In this document: positions 8,099 to 42,701 of the stretch, piece after piece
How the letters are laid out: the number at the start of each line of letters is the position of its first letter
Position numbering within the stretch: the stretch's first letter is position 1
Assembly (NCBI GenBank): GCA_903868125.1
Contig: CAIPUE010000047.1
Span: 1-46,082 of the forward strand
Length of the DNA stretch: 46,082 nucleotides
Reading direction: 5' to 3'
DNA from: an uncultured bacterium
GTDB taxonomy: Bacteria; Cyanobacteriota; Vampirovibrionia; Gastranaerophilales; Gastranaerophilaceae
Program-made: the position numbers and the translations under genes
Notes under the pieces: model-generated
Told to the model about the DNA's origin: nothing
Databases searched by the model: none
Seen by the model: only the letters and a program-made list of their open reading frames with translations

Positions 8099-9379
8099 TC
8101 ACTTCCCGTCTTCTTCGTCATAGTGGGTAAACTCCAAATGTTCAACAACCACCGTGTCGCCGGTTTTTATCCCATATTTTTTCAGCGTTTTAAACACGCC
8201 CATATTGGTCAAAATATTCTGTAACCTCAAAACCTGCTCGAGATTTCTTGAATCAGTAACATTCGCCAGTCTTTTGATTTTTCCGCCGAAAACGGCAAAA
8301 GTGTTTTTCTCCGTTTTAACAATTTCAAACTCACTGTCATCATTATTGTAAGCATCCAAATCCTCTTTGATATCAAAATCAAAAGTCGGTTTTGGAATTT
8401 CGTCAACTTTTTGTGCCATAAAATTCTTTAATATTTCGACATTTTCACCCGTTGCCGCAGAAATGACAAAAACATCTTTAGCCACCGCCCTAAACTGCTC
8501 AAAATACTCCTCGATAGTTTCCTTTTCAATCGCGTCAATTTTATTCAGTGCGACAATTTGGTACAAATCAGCCAAACGTTCGGAGTGCTTTTTCAATTCA
8601 TTATTAATTTTATTGTAATTTTCCATAGGATTATCTTGGGTTAAATCCACGATATGCACCAAGAAACGACATCTTTCAACGTGTCTTAAAAATTCATGCC
8701 CCAATCCAACGCCCTCACTTGCACCCTCAATAAGTCCCGGAATATCAGCTACAACAAACCCGTCTCCTGTCGGTTTTGTAACAACCCCAAGGTTAGGGAT
8801 AAGTGTTGTAAAAGGATAATCAGCAATTTTCGGTTTCGCAGAACTTATTACACTTATAAATGTTGATTTTCCTGCGTTCGGCATACCCAAAAGCCCAACA
8901 TCAGCGATTAATTTCAGTTCCAATTCCAAATCTCTTTCAATTGCGGGTTCCCCGGGTTCACAAAATTGCGGCGCACGCTTTTGAGAAGTCGCAAATCTTG
9001 CGTTGCCTCGACCGCCCCTGCCGCCCTTTGCTACAAGTACCGTATCAGCAGTGTTGGCTAAATCGGCGATGAGCTTCCCGGTTTTTAAATCCCTTATCAT
9101 AGTTCCCACAGGAACTTTTACATATAAATCTTTACCGCAACGCCCGTGTTGCCCCTTACTTCTGCCGTTTACCCCAGCCTCTGCCTTAAAAACGGATTTA
9201 TATTTAAAATCCATCAATGTCGACATGTTCTCATCTGCGATAAAATAAACGTCGCCGCCCAATCCGCCGTCGCCACCAGCAGGCCCGCCCTTGTCAACGT
9301 ATTTTTCTCTACGCCAAGCAACCATGCCGTTCCCGCCATGACCTGATACTATTTTAATTTTTGATTTATCTAAAAACAT
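8099..9379 (-). CDS. obgE: GTPase Obg/CgtA
   Basis: 426 residues with all three Obg parts: the glycine-rich Obg fold (1-160, many G-G and P-x-G), a G domain with P-loop G-M-P-N-A-G-K-S-T near 165, D-I-P-G near 212 and N-K-I-D near 283, and a C-terminal OCT domain. Obg binds the 50S subunit, links ribosome maturation to GTP/ppGpp level and is essential. The TGA stop abuts the 7-mer repeat array. Its start codon directly follows a conserved structured leader (9380-9485) also found in front of flgB and flgC, so translational control is likely. AAGG six bases before ATG. Confidence 0.95.
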   Translation of the reverse strand: MFLDKSKIKIVSGHGGNGMVAWRREKYVDKGGPAGGDGGLGGDVYFIADENMSTLMDFKYKSVFKAEAGVNGRSKGQHGRCGKDLYVKVPVGTMIRDLKTGKLIADLANTADTVLVAKGGRGGRGNARFATSQKRAPQFCEPGEPAIERDLELELKLIADVGLLGMPNAGKSTFISVISSAKPKIADYPFTTLIPNLGVVTKPTGDGFVVADIPGLIEGASEGVGLGHEFLRHVERCRFLVHIVDLTQDNPMENYNKINNELKKHSERLADLYQIVALNKIDAIEKETIEEYFEQFRAVAKDVFVISAATGENVEILKNFMAQKVDEIPKPTFDFDIKEDLDAYNNDDSEFEIVKTEKNTFAVFGGKIKRLANVTDSRNLEQVLRLQNILTNMGVFKTLKKYGIKTGDTVVVEHLEFTHYDEEDGK

Positions 9380-9485
9380 ATTGCCTTCTTTCTCCGTTGA
9401 GCCTCTGGCGAAACGTGAGAAATGGCCTCACGGCTTCACTAAGAACTACCTTTTTATTGATTTATTCGTATATAGTGAGAAACCT
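9380..9485 (-). promoter_or_regulatory. Conserved structured leader of obgE (candidate riboregulator, copy A)
   Basis: Read on the minus strand: TCTCACTATA (9480-9471), a variable spacer, TTAGTGAA (about 9442-9435), hairpin CGTGAG-loop-CTCACG (9432-9414), then GGAGAAAGAAGGCAA up to the ATG. TCACTA can pair with TAGTGA. TAGTGAA can instead pair with TTCGC after the hairpin. The hairpin loop and 3' arm (GCC-A-TTTCTC) can pair with GAGAAAGAAGGC, which holds the ribosome-binding site. All these parts recur before flgB and flgC. Confidence 0.7.
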
Positions 9486-9690
9486 CAACACGAAATTGTT
9501 TAAGTTCCGCCTTTATTAACTTTTTCGCTTTACTACTTTATTCTTTCGATTTATCGGCTTACACGCTTTATGCACTCGCTGATTTTTGCTCCGTCCCTCA
9601 TTTTAAGTTAGACTTGCCCGCTCGCATCTCCTTTGCTAGGGAGTTTTTACCTTGTTGACCTTTTGTCGGTAGGTTAGGGAACCCACCCTA
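9486..9690 (-). other. Upstream extension of the obgE leader, shared with the GT6 gene leader
   Basis: No gene in this 317-base gap. The minus strand begins with a GTAGGG hairpin (one mismatch) and then has blocks GAGATGCGA, GCGAGTGCATAAAGCG, GTAAGCCGAT, TCGAAA and TAAAGTAGTAA, in the same order as 26081-26177. This looks like the 5' part of a longer structured RNA or a dispersed element of about 300 bp. Confidence 0.55.
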
Positions 9691-10247: not shown

Positions 10248-11417
10248 ATGAAAAGAATAAAAAAGACACTATTTAGCGAAAAACCAATCAATATCGGTGA
10301 AAATTCGGGATATGACAACTACATAATGGCGATTGAAAGCAGTTGTGATGAAACAGCTTGTGCTATTGTAAAAAACGGGCGTGAGGTTCTTTCAAACGTG
10401 GTCGCATCCCAAATAAAAACCCACGCAAAATATGGTGGGGTAATCCCTGAAATAGCGGCTCGAGAACATCTTGAAGCCATAAATATTGTCATAAAGGAAG
10501 CTTTTGAACAGGCGAATTTAAAACCTCAAGACGTAACAGCTTTTGCTGCAACGGTTGGCCCCGGACTTGTAGGTTCATTACTTGTCGGACTAAACGCCGC
10601 AAAAACTCTTTCGCTAATTTACGATAAGCCCTTTATCGGAGTTAATCATTTAAACGCCCACGTTTGCGCGAATTATATTGATACAGATTTAAAGCCCCCA
10701 TTTATCGCACTTTTAATAAGTGGTGGGCATACCCAAATTATTGAGGTTAAATCACATTCCGAGCAGTATATTCTTGGCGAAACTATTGACGACGCCGTAG
10801 GCGAAGCTTATGATAAAGTCGCCCGACTTATCGGACTACCTTATCCGGGAGGGCCGCTTTTAGATAAACTTGCAAAAGATGGAAACAGATTTGCATACAA
10901 ATTACCTATCAGTAAAGTCGGTGAATATGATTTCAGCTTTAGCGGATTGAAAACTGCGGTTTTGAGGTTGGTACAAAGCCTTGAGAAGGTAAACGGTAAA
11001 CGGGAAACGGGAAACGGAGAAAAAGCCGACCTTTTAGCCCTCACCCCCAACCCCTCTCCAGCAAGGTCGGAAACCGTTCACCGTTCACCGTTCACCGTTC
11101 ACCAGTCCTCTCACCTCTCACCTTATACGCTTGATGTTTGTGCCTCGTTTCAAGAAACAGTCTCAGAAACCCTTTTGATAAAAGTAAAATCTGCGCTTAA
11201 AGAAAAGGGATATAATCAGATAGTTTTGGCGGGCGGAGTAGCCGCTAACTCAGAAATCAGAAGAAAGTTTTTTGAATTAGAAAATCAGGGGTATAGGGTG
11301 AACGCCCCTGCGATGAAATACTGCACCGACAACGCCGCAATGGTAGCGTCTTGTGCATATTTTTCGACAAACACCTTTGACGATGTCGATGTCGAAGTTT
11401 TTTCAAGGGTTAAATAA
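10248..11417 (+). CDS. tsaD: tRNA N6-adenosine threonylcarbamoyltransferase, with an in-frame repeat insertion
   Basis: TsaD transfers threonylcarbamoyl to A37 of ANN-decoding tRNAs. Key parts are present: E-S-S-C-D-E-T, the metal site H-L-N-A-H, S-G-G-H-T, and A-G-G-V-A-A-N near the C-terminus. At 389 residues it is about 45 longer than usual. Most of the excess is at bases 10988-11124, where 7-mer repeats, a CCGACCTT/AAGGTCGG inverted repeat and a CACCTCTCACC module are read through in frame, in the linker before C-A-S-F-Q-E. An N-terminal extension of 26 residues comes before M-A-I-E-S-S (ATG 10326); I keep the start at 10248 because TATAAT lies six bases before it. Confidence 0.92.
   Translation: MKRIKKTLFSEKPINIGENSGYDNYIMAIESSCDETACAIVKNGREVLSNVVASQIKTHAKYGGVIPEIAAREHLEAINIVIKEAFEQANLKPQDVTAFAATVGPGLVGSLLVGLNAAKTLSLIYDKPFIGVNHLNAHVCANYIDTDLKPPFIALLISGGHTQIIEVKSHSEQYILGETIDDAVGEAYDKVARLIGLPYPGGPLLDKLAKDGNRFAYKLPISKVGEYDFSFSGLKTAVLRLVQSLEKVNGKRETGNGEKADLLALTPNPSPARSETVHRSPFTVHQSSHLSPYTLDVCASFQETVSETLLIKVKSALKEKGYNQIVLAGGVAANSEIRRKFFELENQGYRVNAPAMKYCTDNAAMVASCAYFSTNTFDDVDVEVFSRVK
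10988..11124. repeat. Composite repeat inserted in frame in tsaD
   Basis: GGTAAAC-type 7-mers (10988-11017), CCGACCTT (11026-11033) with its complement AAGGTCGG (11063-11070), CCGTTCA-type 7-mers in opposite orientation (11073-11103) and CTCTCACCTCTCACC (11107-11121). The whole can fold into a long hairpin. Confidence 0.8.
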
Positions 11418-14928: not shown

Positions 14929-16200
14929 GTGTATACAAAAAACAAACTGAAAGATTTAATTTATATTCAAGAAAACAAGCCTTGTAATGAACAAACGGTG
15001 AAAGGTTTGTTTCGATCAATTGTGGAACCTATTTTGGAAAACAATTCCCAAGGTGTTGTACTATGCCGCTTGGAAGAAAAAAGTAAAAATGATTTCAACG
15101 GGATTTTAAAACGGCTTGAATATTCTAATGCTAAATTATACGATTTTTCCAATAATCCCATTTCTGACAAGATTGAAAATGTTTTGAAAGCAAGAGTATG
15201 GGACAAAACGGAATTTATTTATATTTTAGCAGAAAGATTCGGTGCGGTTTTAATTTTTGATTACGAAGAAAGTGAGATAAAAAACTTCGCTCATTTTTAT
15301 CTAATGCATAATTCAAAAAATTTATCCGAAGCATTCGACGTAATTAGTGCAAATGCCACGGTTGATCTGAAAAAATATCAAGAAGAGTTTCATCCCGATA
15401 GACGTGATAATGATATCTTAAATTGTTCCATAAGGAAAATTGTTGAAAGCTTAAATGAAACAAATCAAGAAATTTTGATTTCAGAATTGGAAAAAGAAAA
15501 CATTCAAGATAATTTAAATTTGAGCTCTCATTTAGAATTCATCTCAAAAAAATCAAATTACGTTGCTCATGAAATAAGAAACCAACTTTCAATTTGTAAC
15601 TTATATTCAAGCATAATTCAAAAACAATTATCTAAAATAAAATTTGATAATGAAGATACCGCAAACTCTGTTACAAACGCTTTGGAATATATTCAAAAAT
15701 CGCTTAAAATATCGGGGAATTTACTTTTAGACATAAAATCTTTAAAAAACAATGATATAAAAGAATACGATGTAAAAAATTTGATAGAAACGGCAATAGA
15801 TTTGGCGAGAGCTTATGCGAACGGAAAAGATATTAAGATTAAAAGTGCAGTTACCGAAACGGTTGGAATTTTGGTAGATGAAAATAAATTTTTGACGGTT
15901 TTAATAAATTTAATAAAGAATTCAGTTGAAAGTATTGAAAAAAAAGGCGAAATTAGTATTAAAATGCAAATCGAAGCAGAGAATGTCAAAATAATAATTT
16001 CAAATAACGGAAGCCCGATATCCAAAGATGTTCAAGCAAGAATTTTTGAAGAAGGCTTCACAACAAAAACCTCAGGTGCAGGGCTAGGGCTTTTTATCTG
16101 TAAAAAAACACTGGAAGAACAATTCGCTCAATTAAAATTAATAAAATCCGACGAGATTTCAACCGAGTTTGAAGTAACTGTTTTACGAGGTGAACGGTAA
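14929..16200 (+). CDS. Soluble sensor histidine kinase upstream of flagellar genes
   Basis: 423 residues, no membrane segment. The N-terminal 190 residues are a sensor region of no clear family. Dimerisation region with V-A-H-E-I-R-N-Q-L-S (about 214-223), then ATPase motifs N-L-I-K-N-S-V-E-S-I and G-A-G-L-G-L-F-I-C-K. GTG start at 14929 with AAGG eight bases before. It follows the NarL-type regulator by 65 bases and lies about 290 bases before flgB, like the FlgS-type kinases that drive rod/hook genes in other bacteria; the match is in position and architecture only. The stop codon abuts 7-mer repeats. Confidence 0.8.
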   Translation: MYTKNKLKDLIYIQENKPCNEQTVKGLFRSIVEPILENNSQGVVLCRLEEKSKNDFNGILKRLEYSNAKLYDFSNNPISDKIENVLKARVWDKTEFIYILAERFGAVLIFDYEESEIKNFAHFYLMHNSKNLSEAFDVISANATVDLKKYQEEFHPDRRDNDILNCSIRKIVESLNETNQEILISELEKENIQDNLNLSSHLEFISKKSNYVAHEIRNQLSICNLYSSIIQKQLSKIKFDNEDTANSVTNALEYIQKSLKISGNLLLDIKSLKNNDIKEYDVKNLIETAIDLARAYANGKDIKIKSAVTETVGILVDENKFLTVLINLIKNSVESIEKKGEISIKMQIEAENVKIIISNNGSPISKDVQARIFEEGFTTKTSGAGLGLFICKKTLEEQFAQLKLIKSDEISTEFEVTVLRGER

Positions 16201-16345
16201 ACGGTAAACGGTGAATGGCGGCAAAAAGCCCAAGGTCATTAAAGTAGGGTGGGTTCCCTAACCCACCGACAACAAGCCCGAAAAGAAGTAAAAAGTAAAA
16301 AGGAAAAAGTGAAAAGTAAGCGAGAAACGCAAAACTATTCAACTA
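16191..16345. repeat. Composite dispersed repeat before flgB
   Basis: Ordered modules: GGTAAAC 7-mers (16191-16215), GGCAAAAAGCCCAAGGTC (16219-16236), hairpin GGTGGGTTCCCTAACCCACC (16248-16267), GTAAAAA 7-mers (16287-16318), core GCGAGAAACGCAAAACT (16320-16336), ATTCAACT 8-mers (16336-16352). The same modules occur in the same order at other loci. Confidence 0.8.
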
Positions 16346-16360
16346 TTCAACTAAAGGAAA

Positions 16361-16492
16361 GGCACCTACAATACAAACGGGTGTAATGGTGTCTCACTAT
16401 AGAAGACCCAAGTGATAAAAGAATAATCTTAGTGAAGTCGTGAGGCCATTTCTCACGTTTCGCAGGAGCTCAACGGAGAAAGAAGGCAAAAA
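16361..16492 (+). promoter_or_regulatory. Conserved structured leader of flgB (candidate riboregulator, copy B)
   Basis: GGCACC (16361-16366), GTGTAATGGTGTCTCACTAT (16381-16400), TAGTGA (16430-16435), hairpin CGTGAG/CTCACG (16439-16444 / 16452-16457), then GGAGAAAGAAGGC before the ATG. GGCACC can pair with GGTGTC. TCACTA (16394-16399) pairs perfectly with TAGTGA; GTGAA can alternatively pair with TTCGC after the hairpin. GCC and TTTCTC in the hairpin can pair with the GAGAAAGAAGGC ribosome-binding region. Confidence 0.72.
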
Positions 16493-16975
16493 ATGGATTT
16501 GACAACAACAAGAACGATAGATATAACAAAATTGGCATTAGACGGCTTAATGATGCGTCAAAAGGCAGTCACTGCAAATACGGCGAATGTTATTACTCCG
16601 GGATACCAAAGACAAGAAGTTACCTTCGAAAATCAACTTAAAGAAATTGTGGAGAAGGATGACCTGAAAACTTATATAAAGGAAAAGAACAGTATTCAAT
16701 ATAATCCGACATCTTTGGATTTATTGATGGGGGAGAATAAAAAGCCCAACTTAACTTCTCAACAAGCGCGTTATTTACAATCAGATGTATATGGTGGTTA
16801 TAATCCGCAAATCACTACAGATATAGATTCAGGCAGTGATGCAACAGGGAATAATGTTGACTTGGAAACAGAGGTAATGGATATGGCTGCGGTAGGGATG
16901 AAATACAATGTTTTGGCAGGTTTGGAACAAAAACAATTTAGAACCATAGCAGGAGCGATTAAAGGTGATATGTAG
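16493..16975 (+). CDS. flgB: Flagellar basal-body rod protein FlgB
   Basis: 160 residues. FlgB is a proximal rod subunit exported by the flagellar type III apparatus. The N-terminus has the rod/hook family pattern: L-A-L-D-G-L-M-M-R-Q, A-N-T-A-N-V-I-T-P-G-Y-Q-R, F-E-N-Q-L; the C-terminus has the heptad-rich V-D-L-E-T-E-V-M-D-M-A. Length is a little above the usual 130-140. It opens the flagellar gene run and is preceded by the conserved structured leader. Confidence 0.93.
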   Translation: MDLTTTRTIDITKLALDGLMMRQKAVTANTANVITPGYQRQEVTFENQLKEIVEKDDLKTYIKEKNSIQYNPTSLDLLMGENKKPNLTSQQARYLQSDVYGGYNPQITTDIDSGSDATGNNVDLETEVMDMAAVGMKYNVLAGLEQKQFRTIAGAIKGDM

Positions 16976-16980
16976 TAAAA

Positions 16981-17113
16981 AGGCTCCAGAGGAAATATGG
17001 TAGGTGTAATGGTGTCTCACTATATACAAACAGAGCGATAAAATATAGCTCTTAGTGAAACCGTGAGGCCATTTCTCACGTTTCACTAAAGCTCAACTGA
17101 GAAAGAAGGCAAA
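16981..17113 (+). promoter_or_regulatory. Conserved structured leader of flgC (candidate riboregulator, copy C)
   Basis: GGTGTAATGGTGTCTCAC (17003-17020), TCACTA (17017-17022), TAGTGA (17053-17058), hairpin CGTGAG/CTCACG (17062-17067 / 17075-17080) and TGAGAAAGAAGGC before the ATG. Here TTAGTGAAA pairs fully with TTTCACTAA after the hairpin, making a 15-bp stem with one bulge that competes with the upstream TCACTA pairing. Confidence 0.72.
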
Positions 17114-17620
17114 ATGAGTTTTGATGTATTTGATATAGCGGCATCGGGGATGCATGCTCAAAGAGTAAAAATGGATGCAATTGCGAGTAACGTTGCAAAT
17201 ATAAACACGACAAGAAGACCTGACGGAACTGTCGGACCTTACATAAAAAAAGATGTAAGCTTTAAGTCAATTTATGATGAAAAACTTTCGCAAGGAGCAT
17301 CTAATTTTTCTAGTAACAGTACGGCGGCGCAATTTGATCCTGCAACCGGTACATTGAGAATAAAGGCAGGGATTGAGTTAAATAACGGACGGATGTCAAA
17401 CGGGGTTGAAGTTGCCGGAATTACGGATTCAAAAGATGCTATCAGAACCGTATACGACCCATCGCATCCGGATGCGGATGCTGATGGCTTTGTACAAATG
17501 CCAAACGTAAACATTGTGGAAGAAATGGTCGGTATGGTAACTGCCTCAAAGGCTTATGAAGCGAACTCTATTGCGGCAGAGAACGTTAAAAACATGATAA
17601 GCGCGGCAATGAAGATTTAG
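17114..17620 (+). CDS. flgC: Flagellar basal-body rod protein FlgC
   Basis: 168 residues. A rod subunit with N-terminal F-D-I-A-A-S-G-M-H-A-Q-R and A-S-N-V-A-N-I-N-T-T, and the C-terminal family block V-N-I-V-E-E-M-V-G-M...A-Y-E-A-N near 140-160. D-P-S-H-P-D-A-D-A-D-G is the usual FlgC signature. The gap from flgB is filled by its own copy of the conserved leader, so it can be controlled separately though it is in the same operon. Confidence 0.94.
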   Translation: MSFDVFDIAASGMHAQRVKMDAIASNVANINTTRRPDGTVGPYIKKDVSFKSIYDEKLSQGASNFSSNSTAAQFDPATGTLRIKAGIELNNGRMSNGVEVAGITDSKDAIRTVYDPSHPDADADGFVQMPNVNIVEEMVGMVTASKAYEANSIAAENVKNMISAAMKI

Positions 17621-17635
17621 AAAAGTGAGAAGTAG

Positions 17636-17655
17636 GTCGGGCATTCTTGCCCGAC
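17636..17655. repeat. Palindromic dispersed repeat
   Basis: GTCGGGC-ATTCTT-GCCCGAC, preceded by GTAG. Same family as 40086-40105 (reverse orientation). Confidence 0.7.
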
Positions 17656-17727
17656 AACAAAAAACGATAAAGTAAAAAGAAGTTTAAAGGTTTAGAAGCT
17701 GTAGGGTGAATAGTGAGAGGTGAGAAG

Positions 17728-21703: not shown

Positions 21704-21780
21704 TAAGTCGATAAGTTGAACAGTTGATAAGTTTATTTTTAATAACTATTCAACTGTTCGACTATTCAACTGTTCGACTA
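21699..21780. repeat. 8-mer repeat with inverted arms between fliH and fliI
   Basis: The right part is a tandem of TTCAACTG and TTCGACTA units (21748-21780). The left part (AGTTGATAAGTCGATAAGTTGAACAGTTGA, split across 21699-21727) is an inverted version, so the spacer can fold into a long hairpin before fliI. Confidence 0.75.
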
Positions 21781-21788
21781 TAGTAAGA

Positions 21789-23099
21789 ATGATAAATTTA
21801 GAAGAATACTCACAAATAATCAAACAAACCAATCCGATACGTGAAATTGGCAAGATTATTGAAATAATCGGGTTGATAATTGAAGCTGATGGTCCTCAAT
21901 CGAGTATTGGAGATTTGTGTTATATTTACAACCGACTTGATGAAGAACCTGTTTGGGCAGAAGTTGTAGGGTTTCGTCAAGGAAAAATATTATTGATGCC
22001 GCTTGGGTCAATGGAGGGGTTACAACCGGGGGCGGTTGTTGTTAATACAGGGTCGGCAATGAAAATTAAAGTCGGAGAACAACTTTTGGGTCGTGTTCTT
22101 GATGGGCTTGGCAGGCCAATTGATAATTTGGGTGAGATTAATTCTCAAACCCTGCAATCAACCCATGCGGATGCAATCAATCCGCTTAAAAGAAGAAGAA
22201 TAACGGAATCTCTTTCGTTGGGAATAAAATCTATCGATGGTTTTGTGACGGTAGGAAAAGGTCAGAGATTAGGAATTTTCGCAGGTTCGGGCGTCGGGAA
22301 AAGTACAACTTTAGCGATGATGGCAAAAAATACTTCTGCCGATATGAACGTAATTGCGCTTATCGGAGAACGAGGCAGGGAAGTAAGGGAATTTATTGAA
22401 AAAGCTCTCGGTCAGGAAGGAATGAAAAGAACGGTTGTTATTGCGGCGACTTCTGAGCAACCGTCGTTGGTAAAAATAAAAGCGGCGCATGTTGCAACAT
22501 CTATTGCAGAATATTTCAGAGACACGGGTCGTGATGTTTTATTTATGCTCGACAGTATAACGCGTATTTCTATGGCGCAAAGAGAAGTAGGACTGGCAAT
22601 AGGTGAACCTCCTGCAACTAGAGGCTATACGCCTTCGGTTTTTGCACTTATGCCAAAATTATTGGAAAGAGCAGGAAGTAATGAAAAAGGAACAATGACC
22701 GGACTTTATACGGTTTTGGTTGAGGGGGATGATTTTAATGAGCCTATTTCAGATACGGCAAGAAGTATTTTAGATGGTCACATAATGTTATCTCGCGACC
22801 TTGCGCATAAAAATCATTATCCTGCGGTGGATATTTTACAATCTATTAGTCGGGTCATGCCTGATGTTACGACTGATGAGCATAGAAAAGCGGCGGGTAA
22901 AATAAGGAATTTGCTGGCTATTTACAAAAAAAATGAAGACTTGATTAATATAGGAGCTTATGTGAAAGGCTCGGATAAACAGTGCGACGAAGCGATTAAG
23001 ATGATGGATAAAATAAACGCATTTTTACAACAAGAAGTCGAAGAAAAATTCCATTACTTAACAACTGTGGATGAATTAATTCAACTTTACGGTAAATAA
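21789..23099 (+). CDS. fliI: Flagellum-specific ATPase FliI
   Basis: 436 residues. Export ATPase related to F1-beta. P-loop G-S-G-V-G-K-S-T near 167, G-E-R-G-R-E-V-R-E-F near 193, Walker B L-F-M-L-D-S-I-T-R near 255, and R-G-Y-T-P-S-V-F-A-L-M-P-K-L. It hydrolyses ATP to help substrate entry into the flagellar export channel. No good ribosome-binding site; the 8-mer repeat makes up its leader. No fliJ follows: the next gene is convergent, two bases away. Confidence 0.96.
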   Translation: MINLEEYSQIIKQTNPIREIGKIIEIIGLIIEADGPQSSIGDLCYIYNRLDEEPVWAEVVGFRQGKILLMPLGSMEGLQPGAVVVNTGSAMKIKVGEQLLGRVLDGLGRPIDNLGEINSQTLQSTHADAINPLKRRRITESLSLGIKSIDGFVTVGKGQRLGIFAGSGVGKSTTLAMMAKNTSADMNVIALIGERGREVREFIEKALGQEGMKRTVVIAATSEQPSLVKIKAAHVATSIAEYFRDTGRDVLFMLDSITRISMAQREVGLAIGEPPATRGYTPSVFALMPKLLERAGSNEKGTMTGLYTVLVEGDDFNEPISDTARSILDGHIMLSRDLAHKNHYPAVDILQSISRVMPDVTTDEHRKAAGKIRNLLAIYKKNEDLINIGAYVKGSDKQCDEAIKMMDKINAFLQQEVEEKFHYLTTVDELIQLYGK

Positions 23100-25918: not shown

Positions 25919-26026
25919 AAAGGTAAACGGTAAACGGGAAACGGGAAACGGTGGCAACAAGCCCTAGGTTGTTTAAGTAGGGTGGGATTACTATCCCACC
26001 GTCAAAAAGCCACGAAGAAGTAGAAG
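25919..26026. repeat. Composite dispersed repeat upstream of the glycan genes
   Basis: GGTAAAC/GGGAAAC 7-mers (25922-25951), GGCAACAAGCCCTAGGTTG (25953-25971) and hairpin GGTGGGAT-TACT-ATCCCACC (25981-26000). Same module order as at 16191. Confidence 0.75.
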
Positions 26027-26230
26027 TAGGGTGGGTTCCCTAACCCATCTGCAATAAGCCCAACGTTTCCCAAGCAAAACAGATGCGAAGGTACAGCGAA
26101 ACAATCGAGGGTCAGCGAAACCAGACCCGAGTGCAATAAAGCGAGTAAGCCGATGTCTCGAAAAAGTAAAGTAGTAATTCTAAAAAACAAGTAAAGGCGC
26201 CGACAAAACAAGTAGGTGTAATGGTATAAA
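26027..26230 (+). promoter_or_regulatory. Truncated copy of the long leader element before the GT6 gene (copy D)
   Basis: Begins with a GTAGGGTGGGTTCCC hairpin (26027-26049). Blocks AGATGCGA (26081), CGAGTGCAATAAAGCGAG (26128-26145), GTAAGCCGAT and TAAAGTAGTAA match the region upstream of obgE. It then has AAAGGCGCC and GGTGTAATGGT (26215-26225), and stops there: the switching 3' half present at flgB, flgC and obgE is missing, and ATAAA leads straight to the ATG. Confidence 0.6.
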
Positions 26231-27043
26231 ATGAATAAGGTCGCAATTTTATATATCGGTACAGGTCGTTATACGATTTTTTGGGACGAATTTTACCGTT
26301 CCTGCGAAAAAAACTTACTAAAAAATTGCGAAAAACATTACTTTTTCTTCACCGATAGCCAAGAATTACAGTCTAACGAAAAAATTACGATGATTCCGCA
26401 AGAAAACCTCGGTTGGCCTTTGATTACGGCGCTTAGATATAAGATTTTAAACAAAGTAAAAGAACAATTAAAAGATTATGATTATGTGTTTTTCTTCAAC
26501 GGGAATATGGAGGTAATCCATTCTGTTTCCGAGGAAGAACTGCTCCCGACTGAAGCAGAAGGCTATATTGTGGCACCTCTTCATTCGGGTAACAAAAGAT
26601 TTAAATCTAACTATGAATTTGAATACGAAAGAAATCCAAAATCGAGCTCTTATATTCCTTACGGCGAGGGTGAATATTACTTTCATGCAGGACTTTTAGG
26701 CGGGAGAGTAAAGGAATTCTTAGAAATGCTCGACATTTGTGAAAAAATGATGGATGAAGATTTAAAGCATAATTTTATTCCAAAATTTCATGACGAAAGC
26801 GTATTTAACAAATATGTTTTGACAAGACCGCACAAGATTTTGAGCAATTATTACATCCACCCGACACACGGAAAACCGTTTTTAAGATTAAACCCGAAAG
26901 TAAAAATTATCCAACGGGACAAATCTAAATTCAAATACGGTGGGCATGCCTATTTACGTGGCGAAACCACCGAAAAAATAACATTAACAAGTTACTTTCA
27001 GGAAAAACTTAAAGAAAAATTTGGCAAGGGGTTCAAAAAATAG
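26231..27043 (+). CDS. GT6 family glycosyltransferase (ABO-type, bacterial NxN class)
   Basis: 270 residues. Bacterial GT6 marks are clear: opening V-A-I-L-Y-I-G-T-G-R-Y, F-F-F-N-G-N-M at about 87-93 (the NxN that replaces the metal-binding DxD of animal ABO enzymes), Y-Y-F-H-A-G-L-L-G-G near 155 and F-H-D-E-S-V-F-N-K-Y near 192. GT6 enzymes add GalNAc or Gal in alpha-1,3 linkage to fucosylated galactose; bacterial NxN members are metal-independent. Which sugar it takes cannot be read safely. A GT11 gene 2.2 kb away could make its acceptor. No clear ribosome-binding site. Confidence 0.88.
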   Translation: MNKVAILYIGTGRYTIFWDEFYRSCEKNLLKNCEKHYFFFTDSQELQSNEKITMIPQENLGWPLITALRYKILNKVKEQLKDYDYVFFFNGNMEVIHSVSEEELLPTEAEGYIVAPLHSGNKRFKSNYEFEYERNPKSSSYIPYGEGEYYFHAGLLGGRVKEFLEMLDICEKMMDEDLKHNFIPKFHDESVFNKYVLTRPHKILSNYYIHPTHGKPFLRLNPKVKIIQRDKSKFKYGGHAYLRGETTEKITLTSYFQEKLKEKFGKGFKK

Positions 27044-31373: not shown

Positions 31374-31384
31374 GTGGAGGGACG

Positions 31385-31460
31385 GGTAAACGGTAAACGG
31401 TAAACAGCAAGCGAGAACCGCAAAACTGTTCAACTAATCGACTTATCGACTTATCAACTA
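31385..31460. repeat. Composite dispersed repeat before the MFS gene
   Basis: GGTAAAC 7-mers (31385-31405), core GCGAGAACCGCAAAACTG (31411-31428), then TTCAACTA/ATCGACTT 8-mers to 31460, which form the leader of the next gene. Confidence 0.8.
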
Positions 31461-31464
31461 AATA

Positions 31465-32628
31465 ATGAAAGAATTAGAAAACAAAAAAGCGTTAATTTGG
31501 CTCAATTTGGCGCATTGGGCGAATGACACTTATTCGGGATTTTTGACCCCGATTATGCCTTTTATTGCCGTAAAAGTAGGCATTTCCATGGCTGTTGCTA
31601 CGATGGTAATGAGTATTGCACAAGTTTGCGGGTCTATGTTTCAGCCTATATTCGGGTTTTTTGCGGATAATATGGTTAAAAGGGTCTTTATTTTTTGGGG
31701 TTTAATTTTTGGCTCACTATTCGTCCCGCTTGCGACTAATGCTCCAAATGCAGTTATTTTAACCTTTTTTGTAATTCTAGGAAATCTTGGAGGAAGCTTT
31801 TTTCATCCTCAGGCATTGGGGTTCATTTCAAGGTTTTCGCGTGGGGATTTTGTATCGAATATGGGTATTTTTATTACTTTTGGCACTGTCGGGTATTCTC
31901 TCGGGCCTGTAATTTCAGCACTCGTTACAGAGCATTTCGGACTTGATAAAATTCCTTACATGTCAATTGTCGGTATTTTTATTGCGCTGGCTATGTTTAA
32001 ATCCGTGCCGAAAATTTCGGGTATGGGGGTTAAAGTTGAGCATAAATATTTTAAAGAAACTTTTAAGGAAATTTTGACAAATAAATACATGCTTATCTTG
32101 ATAATGATTTCGATTATGAAATCTTTGATAATAAACGCTTCGGTGATTTTGTTACCTTTTTTATGGAAAAGTCTCGGACATAGTCCGACTTACATTGGTG
32201 TTGCGTTGTTTTTATTCCTTTTGGCAGGGGGCTTTGGTTCAATATTAAGCGGAAGATTTGAGGGAGCAATCGGGGCAAAAAAAATCTTTTATATTTCAAT
32301 GATTTTAACGTTTCCGATAATGGTTTTGTTTGTTTTGACTTATCGGTTACATCCGATGATTTCTGTTGCGGTTTTCGTTTTAATGGGATTTACCACAATG
32401 CTCGCACAGCCCGTAATGCTTGTGATGGCACAGCGAATTTTGCCTGAATATAAAAGTATAGTTTCGGGTTTTATTAACGGTTTTAGTTGGGGTATAGTGG
32501 CGATATTTTTGACGATTATCGGATTTTCAGCCCAAACGTTCGGAATAGCAAAAGTATTGTTGATAGTCTCCGTTGTCCCCGTTATGTTTGCGTATTTTGT
32601 TAAATTTTTACCGAAGATAGAGGATTAG
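31465..32628 (+). CDS. MFS transporter, fosmidomycin-resistance (Fsr)-like
   Basis: 387 residues with about 12 hydrophobic segments. The N-terminal L-N-L-A-H-W-A-N-D-T-Y-S-G-F is the Fsr-group signature, and F-F-A-D-N-M-V-K-R in the first cytoplasmic loop is the MFS motif A region. Probably a drug or metabolite exporter in the inner membrane. Its leader is 8-mer repeat with no good ribosome-binding site. The four last bases overlap the convergent unknown gene. Confidence 0.8.
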   Translation: MKELENKKALIWLNLAHWANDTYSGFLTPIMPFIAVKVGISMAVATMVMSIAQVCGSMFQPIFGFFADNMVKRVFIFWGLIFGSLFVPLATNAPNAVILTFFVILGNLGGSFFHPQALGFISRFSRGDFVSNMGIFITFGTVGYSLGPVISALVTEHFGLDKIPYMSIVGIFIALAMFKSVPKISGMGVKVEHKYFKETFKEILTNKYMLILIMISIMKSLIINASVILLPFLWKSLGHSPTYIGVALFLFLLAGGFGSILSGRFEGAIGAKKIFYISMILTFPIMVLFVLTYRLHPMISVAVFVLMGFTTMLAQPVMLVMAQRILPEYKSIVSGFINGFSWGIVAIFLTIIGFSAQTFGIAKVLLIVSVVPVMFAYFVKFLPKIED

Positions 32629-33809: not shown

Positions 33810-34946
33810 ATGAAAACATCAAGGCAATCATATATAAATGTTCACAGAGATTCTTGGGTTGAGATTAACCTTGAATATCTTGCGCAGAACGTAAAAGCGA
33901 TAAAAAAACTTGTTAATAAAAACGTAAAATTACTTGCGGTAGTTAAAGCGGATGCTTACGGTCATGGTGCAGTGATGGTTGCACCGACAATGTTAGCGTC
34001 GGGCGTTGATATTCTTGGAGTTGCGTCCATTGATGAAGGTTTAAATTTAAGAGATTCTAAAATAACCTGTGATATTCTGGTTTTGGGTGCGGCACCGGTC
34101 TGGTCGTTTGAAAGTGCCGTGGAAAATGATATTACGATTTCAATTTTTTCGCAAGAACATATTCAAGCGGCAAAGCAGGCGTTTGAAAGAACAGGGCAAA
34201 AAGTTAAGGCTCATATTAAGCTTGACACAGGCATGAACAGGATTGGGGTTTGTGCGGATGAAGCGGTGGAATTTATAACGAAAGTTCAAAAGGCTGATTT
34301 CATTGATTTAAAAGGAGTTTTTTCGCATCTGGCATGTGCCGAGGACGAAAATAAAACCCAAAAACAATTAAATAAATGGAACGAAATCATTTCGCAGATT
34401 GATACAAGCGGATTGATTTTACACGTTTTAAATACCGCAGGAATAATGTCTTATCCTGATGCTCAATTCGATATGGTACGTGCTGGAATCGGTTTGTACG
34501 GCTTGATGCCCGATTTATCGGGCGGGATAAACGGTAAACGGGAAACGGTAAACGGGATTTTCTTACCAGTTTTGTCTTTAAAAGGGCGAATAACAAGAAT
34601 TCACACAATGCCAAAGGGCGAGGGAATAAGCTATGGGCATACTTTTGTAGCGGATAAAGATATAAAAGTAGCGACAGTCCCGATTGGCTACGCTGACGGT
34701 GTTCCAAGGGCTTTGTCGAATAAAATTTACGGAATCATTAATAATAAAAAAATTAAACTAATCGGAAATATTACAATGGACCAAATGATGTTTGATATAA
34801 CGGATGTTGAGGCTCGAGAGGGTGACGTAATTACGCTTTTGGGCGAGGATTTATTCATTGATGAATGGGCAAAAATAGTCGGCACGATTAACTATGAATT
34901 GGCTTGCAGGCTTAAGGTTAGGTTACCAAGGGTTTATACGAGGTGA
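33810..34946 (+). CDS. alr: Alanine racemase, with in-frame repeat insertion
   Basis: 378 residues. Alr makes D-alanine for peptidoglycan. PLP lysine in V-V-K-A-D-A-Y-G-H-G near 46; M-N-R-I-G near 141; R-A-G-I-G-L-Y-G near 226; the catalytic Tyr in G-I-S-Y-G-H near 272. Bases 34527-34556 are GGTAAAC/GGGAAAC repeats read in frame as G-K-R-E-T-V-N-G between the barrel and the C-terminal domain, where other Alr proteins have a short linker. The message may be leaderless. Its TGA is 14 bases before the lpd ATG. Confidence 0.93.
   Translation: MKTSRQSYINVHRDSWVEINLEYLAQNVKAIKKLVNKNVKLLAVVKADAYGHGAVMVAPTMLASGVDILGVASIDEGLNLRDSKITCDILVLGAAPVWSFESAVENDITISIFSQEHIQAAKQAFERTGQKVKAHIKLDTGMNRIGVCADEAVEFITKVQKADFIDLKGVFSHLACAEDENKTQKQLNKWNEIISQIDTSGLILHVLNTAGIMSYPDAQFDMVRAGIGLYGLMPDLSGGINGKRETVNGIFLPVLSLKGRITRIHTMPKGEGISYGHTFVADKDIKVATVPIGYADGVPRALSNKIYGIINNKKIKLIGNITMDQMMFDITDVEAREGDVITLLGEDLFIDEWAKIVGTINYELACRLKVRLPRVYTR
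34527..34556. repeat. 7-mer repeat inside alr
   Basis: GATAAACGGTAAACGGGAAA continuing to CGGTAAACGG: four units of the GGTAAAC array within the coding sequence. Confidence 0.8.
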
Positions 34947-34960
34947 GTGAGAGGGATATT

Positions 34961-36256
34961 ATGAAAAAATATAATTTTGCGATAATCGGTTCGGGACCTG
35001 CGGGATACACTGCGGCAATTCGTGCGTCGCAATTGGGTAAAACGGTTATTTTGTTTGAAAAAGAACACTTAGGCGGAGTTTGTCTTAACAAGGGCTGTAT
35101 CCCGACGAAAACTTTTTTATATTCTGCAGATTTATATAATTCAATCAAAAAGGCCTCGAATTTCGGGATAGAGATAGAAAATTTTTCGCTTAATTTTGAA
35201 AAAGTGGTTGAAAGAAAGGAAAAAATAGTCGAAAAGTTAAGAAAATCACTCGAAATGCTTTTGAAAAGCCATGGGATTGAGATTGTAAACGCTGAGGCAA
35301 AAATGGTAAACGGTGAACGGAAAACGGTGAACGGAATTTCACTTGTCGAAGCTGACGGCGAGATTTACGAATGTGAAAATATTCTTATCGCGACTGGTTC
35401 AGAACCAAGTTGTGTAGGCGGATTTGAGTTTGACCATGAGTTTATTTTGAGTTCTGACGATGTTTTGGGACTTAAAACATTGCCTCAAAAAGTTTTGATT
35501 GTGGGTTCCGGTGCTATAGGGGTTGAATGGGCGCGAATTTTTTCAGCCTTTGGGGTAGATGTTTCGATTGTAGAGCTTGCGGATAAGCTTTTACCGTTAG
35601 CTGATTTTGAGGTTTCTCAACGTTTAGAGCGAATTTTTAAAATGTCTAAAATAAAAATGTCCTTGTCTACATCGGTAAAAGAAATTAAACAAAAAAAAGT
35701 TACGTTGTCAAACGGCGAAGTTCTTGAGCCTGATTTCGTGTTATTCGCAACGGGCAGAAAATCCCTTGTTTTTAACTTTTCACCACTCACCTCTCACCTA
35801 ATCGGTGATGCTTACGGCTCAACTCAGCTTGCGCATTTTGCAAGCCATCAGGGGGTTCAAGTGGTAGAAAATATTGTTTTGGGTAAGGAGATTGAAGAAT
35901 TTATTACGCCTTTTGTTGTTTACGGCAACCCTGAAATAGCTTGGGCTGGGGCAACGGAGCAGGATTTAATTGCAAAAAATATTGAATACAAAAAATCTGT
36001 TTTTCCCGTTTCTGCGCTGGGAAAAGCAGCTACGGAGAGTAATTTAGAGGGATTTGTGAAAATTTTGGCTGATAATGAAGGAAAAATTTTAGGTGCTCAT
36101 ATTATTTCAAAAGAGGCGTCTGCGTTGATTCATCAACTGACAATTGCGATGCAGAACAATTTGGGAGTGGACGAGCTTAAAAAATGTTGTTTTGCTCACC
36201 CGACTTATTCCGAGGGGATTTATGAGGGTTTAAAACTAGTAAACGGTAAACAGTAA
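34961..36256 (+). CDS. lpd: Dihydrolipoamide dehydrogenase-like flavoprotein, with repeat insertion and a shortened segment
   Basis: 431 residues from ATG 34961 (GAGAGGG before it). FAD motif I-I-G-S-G-P-A-G-Y; redox pair G-G-V-C-L-N-K-G-C near 43; NAD motif V-G-S-G-A-I-G near 187; C-terminal H-P-T-Y-S-E. It oxidises dihydrolipoamide in 2-oxoacid dehydrogenase or glycine cleavage complexes. Bases 35303-35335 are 7-mer repeat read in frame. At about 35777-35800 a CACCACTCACCTCTCAC module sits where about 20 residues between G-R-x-P-N and the second FAD motif (here L-I-G-D) should be. The H-x-x-x-x-E pair is weak. Function is therefore probable but not certain. Confidence 0.85.
   Translation: MKKYNFAIIGSGPAGYTAAIRASQLGKTVILFEKEHLGGVCLNKGCIPTKTFLYSADLYNSIKKASNFGIEIENFSLNFEKVVERKEKIVEKLRKSLEMLLKSHGIEIVNAEAKMVNGERKTVNGISLVEADGEIYECENILIATGSEPSCVGGFEFDHEFILSSDDVLGLKTLPQKVLIVGSGAIGVEWARIFSAFGVDVSIVELADKLLPLADFEVSQRLERIFKMSKIKMSLSTSVKEIKQKKVTLSNGEVLEPDFVLFATGRKSLVFNFSPLTSHLIGDAYGSTQLAHFASHQGVQVVENIVLGKEIEEFITPFVVYGNPEIAWAGATEQDLIAKNIEYKKSVFPVSALGKAATESNLEGFVKILADNEGKILGAHIISKEASALIHQLTIAMQNNLGVDELKKCCFAHPTYSEGIYEGLKLVNGKQ
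35303..35335. repeat. 7-mer repeat inside lpd
   Basis: Units of GGTAAAC/GGTGAAC in frame, read as M-V-N-G-E-R-K-T-V-N-G. Confidence 0.8.
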
Positions 36257-36330
36257 ACAGTGAACGGTAGGGTGCGGATTTAACCGCACCGACAAAAACT
36301 GTTAAACTATTCGACTTTTCGACCAAAAAA
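36238..36330. repeat. Composite dispersed repeat between lpd and lipA
   Basis: GTAAACG/A 7-mers (36238-36266), hairpin GGTGCGG-ATTTAA-CCGCACC (36271-36290), then ACTGTTAAACTATTCGACTT-type 8-mers (36298-36326). The lpd stop lies inside the 7-mers, and AAAAAAGG after the 8-mers is the lipA ribosome-binding site. Confidence 0.8.
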
Positions 36331-36338
36331 GGAAAAAA

Positions 36339-37250
36339 ATGACAAGACTTCCTGAATATTTAAAACGACCGATTATAGATACGGAAAAAACAAAAAATGT
36401 TCGTCGTATTTTAAAAACTCACTGCTTAAGCACGGTTTGCGAGTCGGCACGTTGTCCTAACAAAAACGAATGTTACACGAAAAACACGGCAACTTTTTTG
36501 ATTATGGGGGACGTTTGTACGAGAAACTGTCGTTTTTGCAATATTTCATGTGAAACCCCACAACCCTTGAACGAAAATGAACCTAAAAACGTTGCGAAAG
36601 CCATTCAGGAGTTGAATTTAACATACGCGGTGATAACCTCCGTAACTCGAGACGACTTGCCTGACGGAGGGGCGGAGCATTTTTCGAACTGCATTAAAGA
36701 AGTAAAAAGTAAAAAGCAAAATGTAAAAAGTGAGCGAGAACCGCAAAACTGTTCAACTATTCGACTATTCGACTTTTCAACTAAAATAGAAATCCTCACG
36801 CCTGATTTCAAGGGTGACACAAAATCACTCGATACAATTATTAAATCAATTTATCCCCCCGATGTTTTCAATCATAATATCGAAACCGTGCCGAGGTTGT
36901 ACAAAACTGCCAGACCACAGGCGATTTATCAGCGTTCGCTTGATGTTTTAAAATACGTGAAAGATAATTCAGAGATTTTAACAAAATCGGGTATTATGGT
37001 AGGTTTAGGCGAAACTTTTGAAGAATTGAAGCAGACTTTAAAGGATTTAAAAAATATTAGTTGTGATATTGTAACAATCGGTCAATACATTCAGCCCTCA
37101 AAAGAACATTTACCTGTGGAAAAATACTACACGCTTGAGGAATTTGAGGAATTGAAAATATTGGCAAAACAAGTCGGGATAAAAACCTACCAAATCGGCG
37201 CGCTTGTTAGAAGCTCATATAACGCCGCAGAAACAGCTAAAATAAGTTAA
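36339..37250 (+). CDS. lipA: Lipoyl synthase, with in-frame repeat insertion
   Basis: 303 residues. LipA inserts two sulfurs into protein-bound octanoate. Both clusters are present: auxiliary C-E-S-A-R-C-P-N-K-N-E-C (about 33-44) and radical-SAM C-T-R-N-C-R-F-C (about 60-67); R-S-S-Y-N-A at the end supplies the Ser ligand. Bases 36700-36785 are a GTAAAAA array, the GAGCGAGAACCGCAAAACTG core and TTCAACTA 8-mers, read in frame as about 29 extra residues before K-I-E-I-L-T-P-D-F. Same pathway as lpd upstream. Converges on dnaX with a four-base overlap. Confidence 0.93.
   Translation: MTRLPEYLKRPIIDTEKTKNVRRILKTHCLSTVCESARCPNKNECYTKNTATFLIMGDVCTRNCRFCNISCETPQPLNENEPKNVAKAIQELNLTYAVITSVTRDDLPDGGAEHFSNCIKEVKSKKQNVKSEREPQNCSTIRLFDFSTKIEILTPDFKGDTKSLDTIIKSIYPPDVFNHNIETVPRLYKTARPQAIYQRSLDVLKYVKDNSEILTKSGIMVGLGETFEELKQTLKDLKNISCDIVTIGQYIQPSKEHLPVEKYYTLEEFEELKILAKQVGIKTYQIGALVRSSYNAAETAKIS
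36700..36785. repeat. Composite repeat inside lipA
   Basis: The same module order (GTAAAAA array, GCGAGAACCGCAAAACT core, 8-mer array) as the intergenic copy at 16287-16352. Confidence 0.82.
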
Positions 37251-41354: not shown

Positions 41355-42701
41355 TTAATCTTCAGTTTCTTTAGCTGATTTTTTTGGTTTTTTTTCTTTT
41401 TTTTCTTTTTCAGGTTTTGCGGGTTTTTCTTTTACTTCTTTAGGTTTTTTTGTCTTTTTTTCTTCTTTTACTTTAGGCTTTTTGAATTCTTCGGGAGCAT
41501 CCACTCTTTCTTGATTCCATCTGTCAAGCCCCAATTTAGCCCTTACAAGCCCTATTCCGACGTGTACTCTCCACTCATCCATTTTTAATTGCGAAGCAAG
41601 AATCTTATGGCAGCCTATAGGAGGCAACGGGAGTAAAGGTTCATATAAATTTTGGATTGCGAACATTTGATCAGGTGAAATAGCCAACTTTCTTTTAGGG
41701 AACGGCAATTTCGGCAACATCATTTTTTGTCTTATCAAATTGATACCAAAGAAAACTTTTCTTGGCTCAAGTTCGATTTTTGCTCCGATTACTTCATGCG
41801 CATCAGGATTAGGTAAAGGTAACATAGCCTTATACAATAATTCAATTTGTTCCAATTGCTCTTTGCTTACCAAAAGCGGTTTGTTACGATTCATCGGAGG
41901 ACGTCTGTTAGCATTAAAATGATTTCCGCTTTGAGGTCTATTATATCCTCCACCCTGTTGCGGCGGTCTGTTGTATCCGCCACGGTCTTGGTTATACCCG
42001 CCTTGTTGAGGTGGTCTGTTATACCCGCCACGGTCTTGATTATATCCGCCTTGTTGAGGCGGTCTGTTATATCCGCCACGGTCTTGATTATATCCGCCTT
42101 GTTGTGGTGGTCTGTTATAACCGCCTTGATTATATCCACCCTGTTGAGGCGGTCTGTTGTAGCCGCCACGGTCTTGATTATATCCACCTTGTTGTGGTGG
42201 TCTGTTATACCCGCCTTGGTTGTACCCACCCTGTTGAGGCGGTCTGTTATATCCGCCACGGTCTTGGTTATACCCGCCCTGTTGTGGTGGTCTGTTGTAA
42301 CCGCCACGGTCTTGGTTATATCCACCCTGTTGAGGCGGTCTGTTGTAGCCGCCTTGTGGTCTTTGATAACCGCCTTGACCTTGATTATAGCCCTTGTTGT
42401 CAGGACGGTTATAAGGTCTTGGCTGCGGAGCATCCTGTGAATAACTGTTATAAAACTGTTGCTGCGATTGCGGTCTTTGTTGCTGGGATTGTTCGTTATT
42501 TTCCTGTTGTTCTTGTTGATTTCCTTGTTGCTCCTCTTGTTGAGAACCGTTTTTTTCATCTTTTTCAGACTCATTTGAGGTCGTTAAATCCGATGATAAA
42601 ATCATTTTTTTATCAGGGTACAAACAATTGGGGCAAATAACTCTTTTGGGGTTTTTGGTTTCAAACTCGGAACCGCACTTAGTGCATTTGTTTACATACA
42701 T
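41355..42701 (-). CDS. Zinc-ribbon protein with Gly/Tyr/Asn/Gln tandem repeats
   Basis: 448 residues in four parts. Residues 1-30 are a zinc ribbon (C-T-K-C ... C-P-N-C). About 45-95 is Q/N/E-rich. About 105-255 is a tandem array of 14-16-residue units of the type G-G-Y-N-Q-D-R-G-G-Y-N-R-P-P-Q-Q, which is strongly disordered. About 270-390 is a pair of similar 60-residue helical units, each with L-Y-x-x-L-L/M-L-P-x-P and R-x-x-x-G-I-x-L-(I/V)-R. The last 50 residues are K/E/P-rich. Family not recognised. Placement before rimM-trmD hints at RNA or ribosome work, perhaps in condensates; that is inference. Confidence 0.75.
   Translation of the reverse strand: MYVNKCTKCGSEFETKNPKRVICPNCLYPDKKMILSSDLTTSNESEKDEKNGSQQEEQQGNQQEQQENNEQSQQQRPQSQQQFYNSYSQDAPQPRPYNRPDNKGYNQGQGGYQRPQGGYNRPPQQGGYNQDRGGYNRPPQQGGYNQDRGGYNRPPQQGGYNQGGYNRPPQQGGYNQDRGGYNRPPQQGGYNQGGYNRPPQQGGYNQDRGGYNRPPQQGGYNQDRGGYNRPPQQGGYNQDRGGYNRPPQQGGGYNRPQSGNHFNANRRPPMNRNKPLLVSKEQLEQIELLYKAMLPLPNPDAHEVIGAKIELEPRKVFFGINLIRQKMMLPKLPFPKRKLAISPDQMFAIQNLYEPLLPLPPIGCHKILASQLKMDEWRVHVGIGLVRAKLGLDRWNQERVDAPEEFKKPKVKEEKKTKKPKEVKEKPAKPEKEKKEKKPKKSAKETED
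41940..42385. repeat. 42/48-bp tandem repeat array in the coding sequence
   Basis: Units differ mainly by synonymous or single changes and by presence or absence of the Q-D-R part. The repeat phase keeps other frames open on both strands, which creates long spurious ORFs. Confidence 0.85.

Follow-up and report, generated by a model that had tools for sequence, protein, structure and literature searches.

A dispersed two-hairpin repeat, probably co-opted as a portable ribosome-binding-site leader, before unrelated genes in a Gastranaerophilales genus

Why do a GTPase gene and two flagellar rod genes carry the same leader up to their start codons? The window (the whole stretch of 46,082 nt analysed here, contig CAIPUE010000047.1 of assembly GCA_903868125.1, from an uncultured member of the Gastranaerophilaceae) contains this leader at obgE, flgB and flgC, and NCBIfam upheld the naming of the three genes, which have no common function. 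An earlier note on this DNA described a common leader of about 105–130 nt and read it as a riboswitch or protein-binding leader. Three copies are indeed found where it placed them, but the repeated unit is 96–98 nt long (TCTCAC...GAAGGC), with a 3–5 nt gap to the ATG in each case, and the sequence upstream of it at flgB and obgE belongs to a second repeat, LR2. An 18-nt core of the unit, GTGAGGCCATTTCTCACG, occurs three times in the window against 0.01 occurrences expected. The copies and their parts are as follows.

16392–16487, plus strand: P1–P2 element, flgB leader (ATG at 16493); also present at flgB of the sister species
16393–16397, plus strand: P1 5′ strand CTCAC of the flgB copy, 3′ strand GTGAG at 16440–16444; covariation at the outer pair
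16445–16459, plus strand: P2 5′ arm GCCATTTCTCACGTT of the flgB copy; P2 covariation
16472–16487, plus strand: P2 3′ arm AACGGAGAAAGAAGGC of the flgB copy, holding the SD-like GAAGG
17015–17110, plus strand: P1–P2 element, flgC leader (ATG at 17114)
17095–17110, plus strand: P2 3′ arm AACTGAGAAAGAAGGC of the flgC copy, holding the SD-like GAAGG
9383–9480, minus strand: P1–P2 element, obgE leader (ATG at 9379–9377); none at obgE of the sister species
9383–9398, minus strand: P2 3′ arm of the obgE copy, holding the SD-like GAAGG

The absence of a known RNA class, as suggested before, was borne out by Rfam, which gave no match in the window at the gathering score, none up to E=1 for positions 16300–17200, and only a tRNA and sub-threshold matches in other carriers. 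The element is built of two abutting hairpins with no gap between them, P1 (NTCAC/GTGAN) followed by P2 (GCC-A-TTTN.../...NAAA-GAA-GGC). Both complementarities pointed out earlier, TCACTA with TAGTGA and GCC plus TTTCTC with GAGAAAGAAGGC, are present in the sequence. It had also been proposed that the helices are kept while the spacer and loops vary; the spacer is variable, but the proposed helices are invariant in the three window copies except for a loop change at flgC, and the window copies are therefore of little weight by themselves, covariation becoming visible only with relatives added.

With relatives included, the covariation that the note had suggested looking for is strong in both hairpins. 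Over 49 distinct 48-nt cores in a gapless alignment, the 13 pairs of P2 were paired in 99.2% of cells, and 128 cells had changed on both sides, the figure for shuffles being 35.5 ± 6. These counts refer to sequences rather than to independent events; the copies form a few subfamilies, and conservation counts are inflated by recent copies. The signal falls off sharply at every shift of the partner strand. With other lengths included, at least 12 fully paired P2 stem sequences were seen, and the outer clamp changes in step from GCC/GGC to GAC/GTC; a separate tally of stem cells gave 942 Watson-Crick, 3 G-T and 30 mismatched. For P1, the outer base in copies with one candidate partner was matched as A-T in 63/65, C-G in 20/20 and G-C in 28/29. 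The helix of GCC/TTTCTC with GAGAAAGAAGGC is real and strongly covarying, and spans the likely ribosome-binding site. The central hairpin of the note did not hold up as a conserved core: GTGAG/CTCAC shows 72% pairing across the family, little above shuffles, and is for that reason regarded as peculiar to the TTTCTC subfamily. Long-lived RNA families do not typically show such a near-lack of G-T pairs in their stems, which fits either selection at the DNA level or recent spread.

Pattern searches and a covariance model identified 15 copies in the genome, 12 of them besides the three in the window. Eight end at start codons (fliQ, obgE, flgB, flgC, ilvD, hisG, speE and a portal-like gene, L007, with an SU10-type phage portal protein domain in Pfam), and these genes share no function; the hisG copy lies outside the pattern of the start-codon scan and was added from separate inspection. 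The other seven are away from start codons and adjoin another hairpin repeat (CCTTCTTTTTTTGTAAAAAAAGAAGGCAAAAAAACTTTAGG..., in places tandem), which is itself commonly found without the P1–P2 element; non-leader copies also precede A-runs beside other hairpins. The genus is represented by two draft assemblies, the source genome (G000) and a sister species (G001), whose compared gene starts are mostly 91–98% identical. The sister carries 12 copies. Seven of these end at start codons, namely those of prfA, a nifS-like gene, hisA, yebC, flgB, fliQ and one unassigned gene, so that leader copies precede at least 13 unrelated genes in the two species together. All 15 leader copies of both species have one orientation and stand 3–6 nt from the ATG.

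Beyond the genus, a pattern scan of GTDB genomes returned, among the matches listed, almost only Candidatus Gastranaerophilales, and the few others were taken for chance matches or misnamed bins. As far as seen, the repeat is restricted to this order, in which a P2-core model found it patchily, in 39 of 286 sampled genomes and 11 of 50 genera; the richest genomes gave at least 21 matches in that screen, and one (G002) gave 26 in a separate search. The copies are intergenic, as only 12 of 137 fall inside ORFs of at least 120 codons, compared with 74% of random positions. Among copies across the order, only this genus was found to have any that end 3–6 nt ahead of a recognisable gene's ATG. Two copies from other genera, L178 (before a GTG) and L254 (before an ATG), resemble the leader copies in placement and were counted as accidental, because both candidate starts lie within the repeat's own 3′ extension, which is seen at many sites. 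Searches for phage carriage gave only three scattered matches in viral contigs, and a literature search on such repeats in Gastranaerophilales or Melainabacteria returned nothing relevant. In one assembly (BRZ_BG bin84), about 20 near-identical repeats of ~177 nt (TGTCCGAG...GATTAGA) enclose the P1–P2 core at L165, L169, L177, L186 and other loci; their predicted fold is branched, and Rfam gave no match to them.

The genus-specific LR2 repeat, mapped in the window next to the element at flgB and obgE, also occurs by itself.

16358–16390, plus strand: LR2 AAAGGCACCTACAATACAAACGGGTGTAATGGT, directly 5′ of the flgB element
9482–9515, minus strand: LR2 TAAAGGCGGAACTTAAACAATTTCGTGTTGAGGT, immediately 5′ of the obgE element
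26193–26225, plus strand: LR2 with no P1–P2 element; 5 nt separate it from the ATG at 26231

At 33 places in the source genome and 32 in the sister species, an ATG follows an LR2 end (GTGTTGAGGT or GTGTAATGGT) at a distance of 1–11 nt, compared with 1–2 places in a reversed control and 0–5 in four other genera; a few of the matches are due to chance or are internal to a repeat. LR2 is part of a larger unit, which is tandem at yebC and at L097 in the source genome. Fourteen of the 15 leader copies lie directly 3′ of an LR2-type end, the exception being ilvD, where the element follows a GTTAC...GTAAC hairpin. Tandem repeats of short units such as AACTGTTCGACTATTCAACT were also seen in the window (21752–21789, 31424–31469, 36297–36334 and 36747–36792), several of them immediately upstream of start codons and forming a third kind of leader repeat.

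Comparison of the sister species revealed that the leaders turn over. A full leader copy is shared by both only at flgB and fliQ. At speE the sister species is empty, reading GTGTTGAGGT, a single T and then AAAAATG, and the source genome is occupied, reading GTGTTGAGGT, a G, the whole element (TCTCAC...GAAGGC) and AAAATG; LR2 and the upstream flank match between the species, making this a near-clean occupied/empty pair. Further leaders that are bare in one species were found at yebC, hisG, prfA, the portal-like gene and L097, where recombination of the whole leader is as likely as insertion because the LR2 hairpin differs too, and at obgE, ilvD, nifS and hisA the entire upstream region differs. 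At flgC the sister species has a GTAG-type hairpin in place of the element, with the last 20 nt (GCTCAACGGAGAAAGAAGGC) alone left in front of the A-run and ATG, as though they were needed.

These observations bear on the earlier reading and on its fuller form, a cis-regulatory switch RNA governing a regulon, in which an AGTGAA/GTGAG fold would leave the SD free, a P1+P2 fold would hide it, and a ligand or protein would choose between them. Mutually exclusive folds are possible in the leader RNA, as the note had held: P2 is the favoured prediction for most leaders, but for flgC, prfA and nifS it is a long local hairpin, AGTGAA to TTTCRC, in which the SD is left free. AGTGAA is kept in 11 of the 12 leader copies compared, and in leaders TTTCTC/GAGAAA replaces TTTTGC/GCAAAA, a change that makes the rival GTGAG/CTCAC hairpin possible with P2 kept. 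The same TTTCTC/GAGAAA is, however, also present in two non-leader copies, the spacer, a possible site for a ligand pocket, is the most variable part, and the genes with leaders both lack a common function and differ between close sisters, so we consider a switch over a regulon improbable. The note had itself named copies unlinked to start codons as the mark of a simple dispersed repeat, and this applies in part: copies away from start codons make up 7 of the 15 in this genome and, outside the genus, essentially all. Given the off-start copies, the turnover between sisters, the unrelated genes and the central hairpin that is not kept, the element is a dispersed but structured repeat with a leader subgroup strictly tied to start codons; many unrelated sites, a conserved structure and presence or absence between close relatives all characterize it. 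Without a search of the whole genome, repeats that lie before genes can pass for riboswitches.

A narrower form of control, by CsrA acting on an ACGGAG (ANGGAN) motif near the SD, was also considered. CsrA and FliW control flagellar genes in other bacteria, this genome has a CsrA gene, and most leader copies contain ACGGAG. Yet the flgC copy reads ACTGAG, with no GGA, the motif occurs at non-flagellar genes as well, and no CsrA was detected in the sister's assembly despite its seven leader copies, making this explanation extremely improbable.

We therefore turn to what the leader subgroup does. The account we regard as probable is that of a non-autonomous structured dispersed repeat, co-opted as a portable ribosome-binding-site leader. 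In this genus the subfamily sits, in one orientation only, with the SD-like end of LR2 on its 5′ side and the A-run that leads to the ATG on its 3′ side; the element's own 3′ end, AAAGAAGGC, would take over as ribosome-binding site. With AAAGAAGGC and the A-run in place, GAAGG lies 4–7 nt before the ATG and the SD of LR2 ~100 nt off, and GAAGG is a plausible working SD. P2 pairs the last G's of GAAGG and the A/G stretch before it, and this helix may damp translation; the competing fold, in which AGTGAA joins the local GTGAG hairpin, would open the SD. The SD likeness of AAAGAAGGC may have another origin, since the 3′ arm is conserved also in copies that have no gene behind them.

One alternative is a selfish or neutral DNA hairpin of MITE or REP type, placed at start codons through an insertion preference for non-coding A-runs and having no effect on expression. 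The scarcity of G-U in the stems and the non-leader copies that likewise precede A-runs next to hairpins agree with it. It sits poorly, however, with the uniform orientation and spacing of all 15 leaders in two species, and with the retention of the last 20 nt alone at the sister's flgC. Across 12 leader copies, moreover, identity is 66% in the spacer and 98–99% in the P1 strand, P2 arms and SD arm; conserved arms beside a drifted spacer suggest constraint on the arms, for spread or for translation. As the element takes up all of the stretch in front of the ATG, an SD in that stretch can only belong to the element, which again counts against a repeat with no role, and we judge such a repeat unlikely.

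A more far-reaching version of the co-opted leader is a mobile translational switch, a two-hairpin cassette that enters between SD and start by transposition or gene conversion, swaps the SD and carries a bistable fold. We hold this to be possible though doubtful; if true, one lineage would be rewiring the translation of unrelated genes species by species. The co-opted leader would mean that, from one close sister species to the other, repeats turn over the last ~100 nt ahead of the starts of core genes (flagellar rod, ObgE, release factor 1, histidine synthesis), with the incoming repeat restoring the ribosome-binding site, and would offer a direct route to testing how dispersed non-coding DNA turns into translation control.

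The ends and neighbours of the element bear on how it may spread. There are no terminal inverted repeats, as the TCTCAC... and ...GAAGGC termini belong to separate hairpins, and no target-site duplication was seen at speE or yebC. The apparent AAAAGAAG duplication at some copies lies inside a CCTTC...GAAGG hairpin repeat, and a full target-duplication model fits only in part, since AAAAGAAG suits some non-leader copies and neither the GTAAG/GTAAC-armed hairpins nor the leader copies. In most of the leaders that differ between the species the LR2 hairpin differs as well, which fits gene conversion of whole leaders no less than insertion. A Y1/RAYT transposase was rejected as mobiliser: the genes in G002 and G006 adjoin GTAG hairpins, several carriers have no Y1, and no P2 copy was found near Y1/RAYT genes at any of eight loci examined. 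In both of those genomes the Y1 gene lies between GTAGGTTGGGCATAC.TGCCCAAC copies of opposite orientation.

Among known systems, the element shares with the Y1/RAYT-mobilised REP/BIME repeats an imperfect hairpin with a covarying stem, many intergenic copies and no clear target duplication, but it has no GTAG at the hairpin foot, and wherever a repeat was seen beside RAYT genes it was a GTAG hairpin and not this element. Correia elements and other MITEs are also small and non-autonomous, and Correia elements can supply expression signals, but the P1–P2 element differs in having no terminal inverted repeats. By behaviour it appears to stand near REP2/CREN of Neisseria and pneumococcal BOX/RUP, likened in both cases by description and not by sequence. 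As described in the citing papers, REP2/CREN of Neisseria meningitidis is a repeat of ~150 bp found immediately before a set of genes whose expression it affects (Morelle et al. 2003, as cited in PMC9031163 and PMC3898611); the likeness is that of a short repeat immediately upstream of genes, and the difference that REP2 accompanies genes switched on by contact with host cells, in an unrelated organism, whereas the genes here share no function. The BOX, RUP and SPRITE repeats of Streptococcus pneumoniae are similarly non-autonomous, structured and intergenic, are co-transcribed as 5′ or 3′ extensions of operons and are thought to alter expression, and a fixed distance to the start codon or a role as ribosome-binding site was not found in what was consulted of that source (PMC3049150). 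If the element works as proposed, it has a property unusual for a structured dispersed repeat, in that it enters the gap from SD to ATG and provides the SD itself.

Other repeats in the window include tandem GGTAAAC 7-mers at 10986–11017, 16187–16218, 25920–25951, 31383–31414, 34524–34555 and 36236–36267, and GTAG-type REP hairpins at 16242–16279, 17630–17667, 25975–26012 and 26024–26061, the latter type occurring also at L276 and L278. Tandem repeats with 48- and 90-nt spacing (41902–42425) lie inside an ORF on the minus strand (41355–42701).
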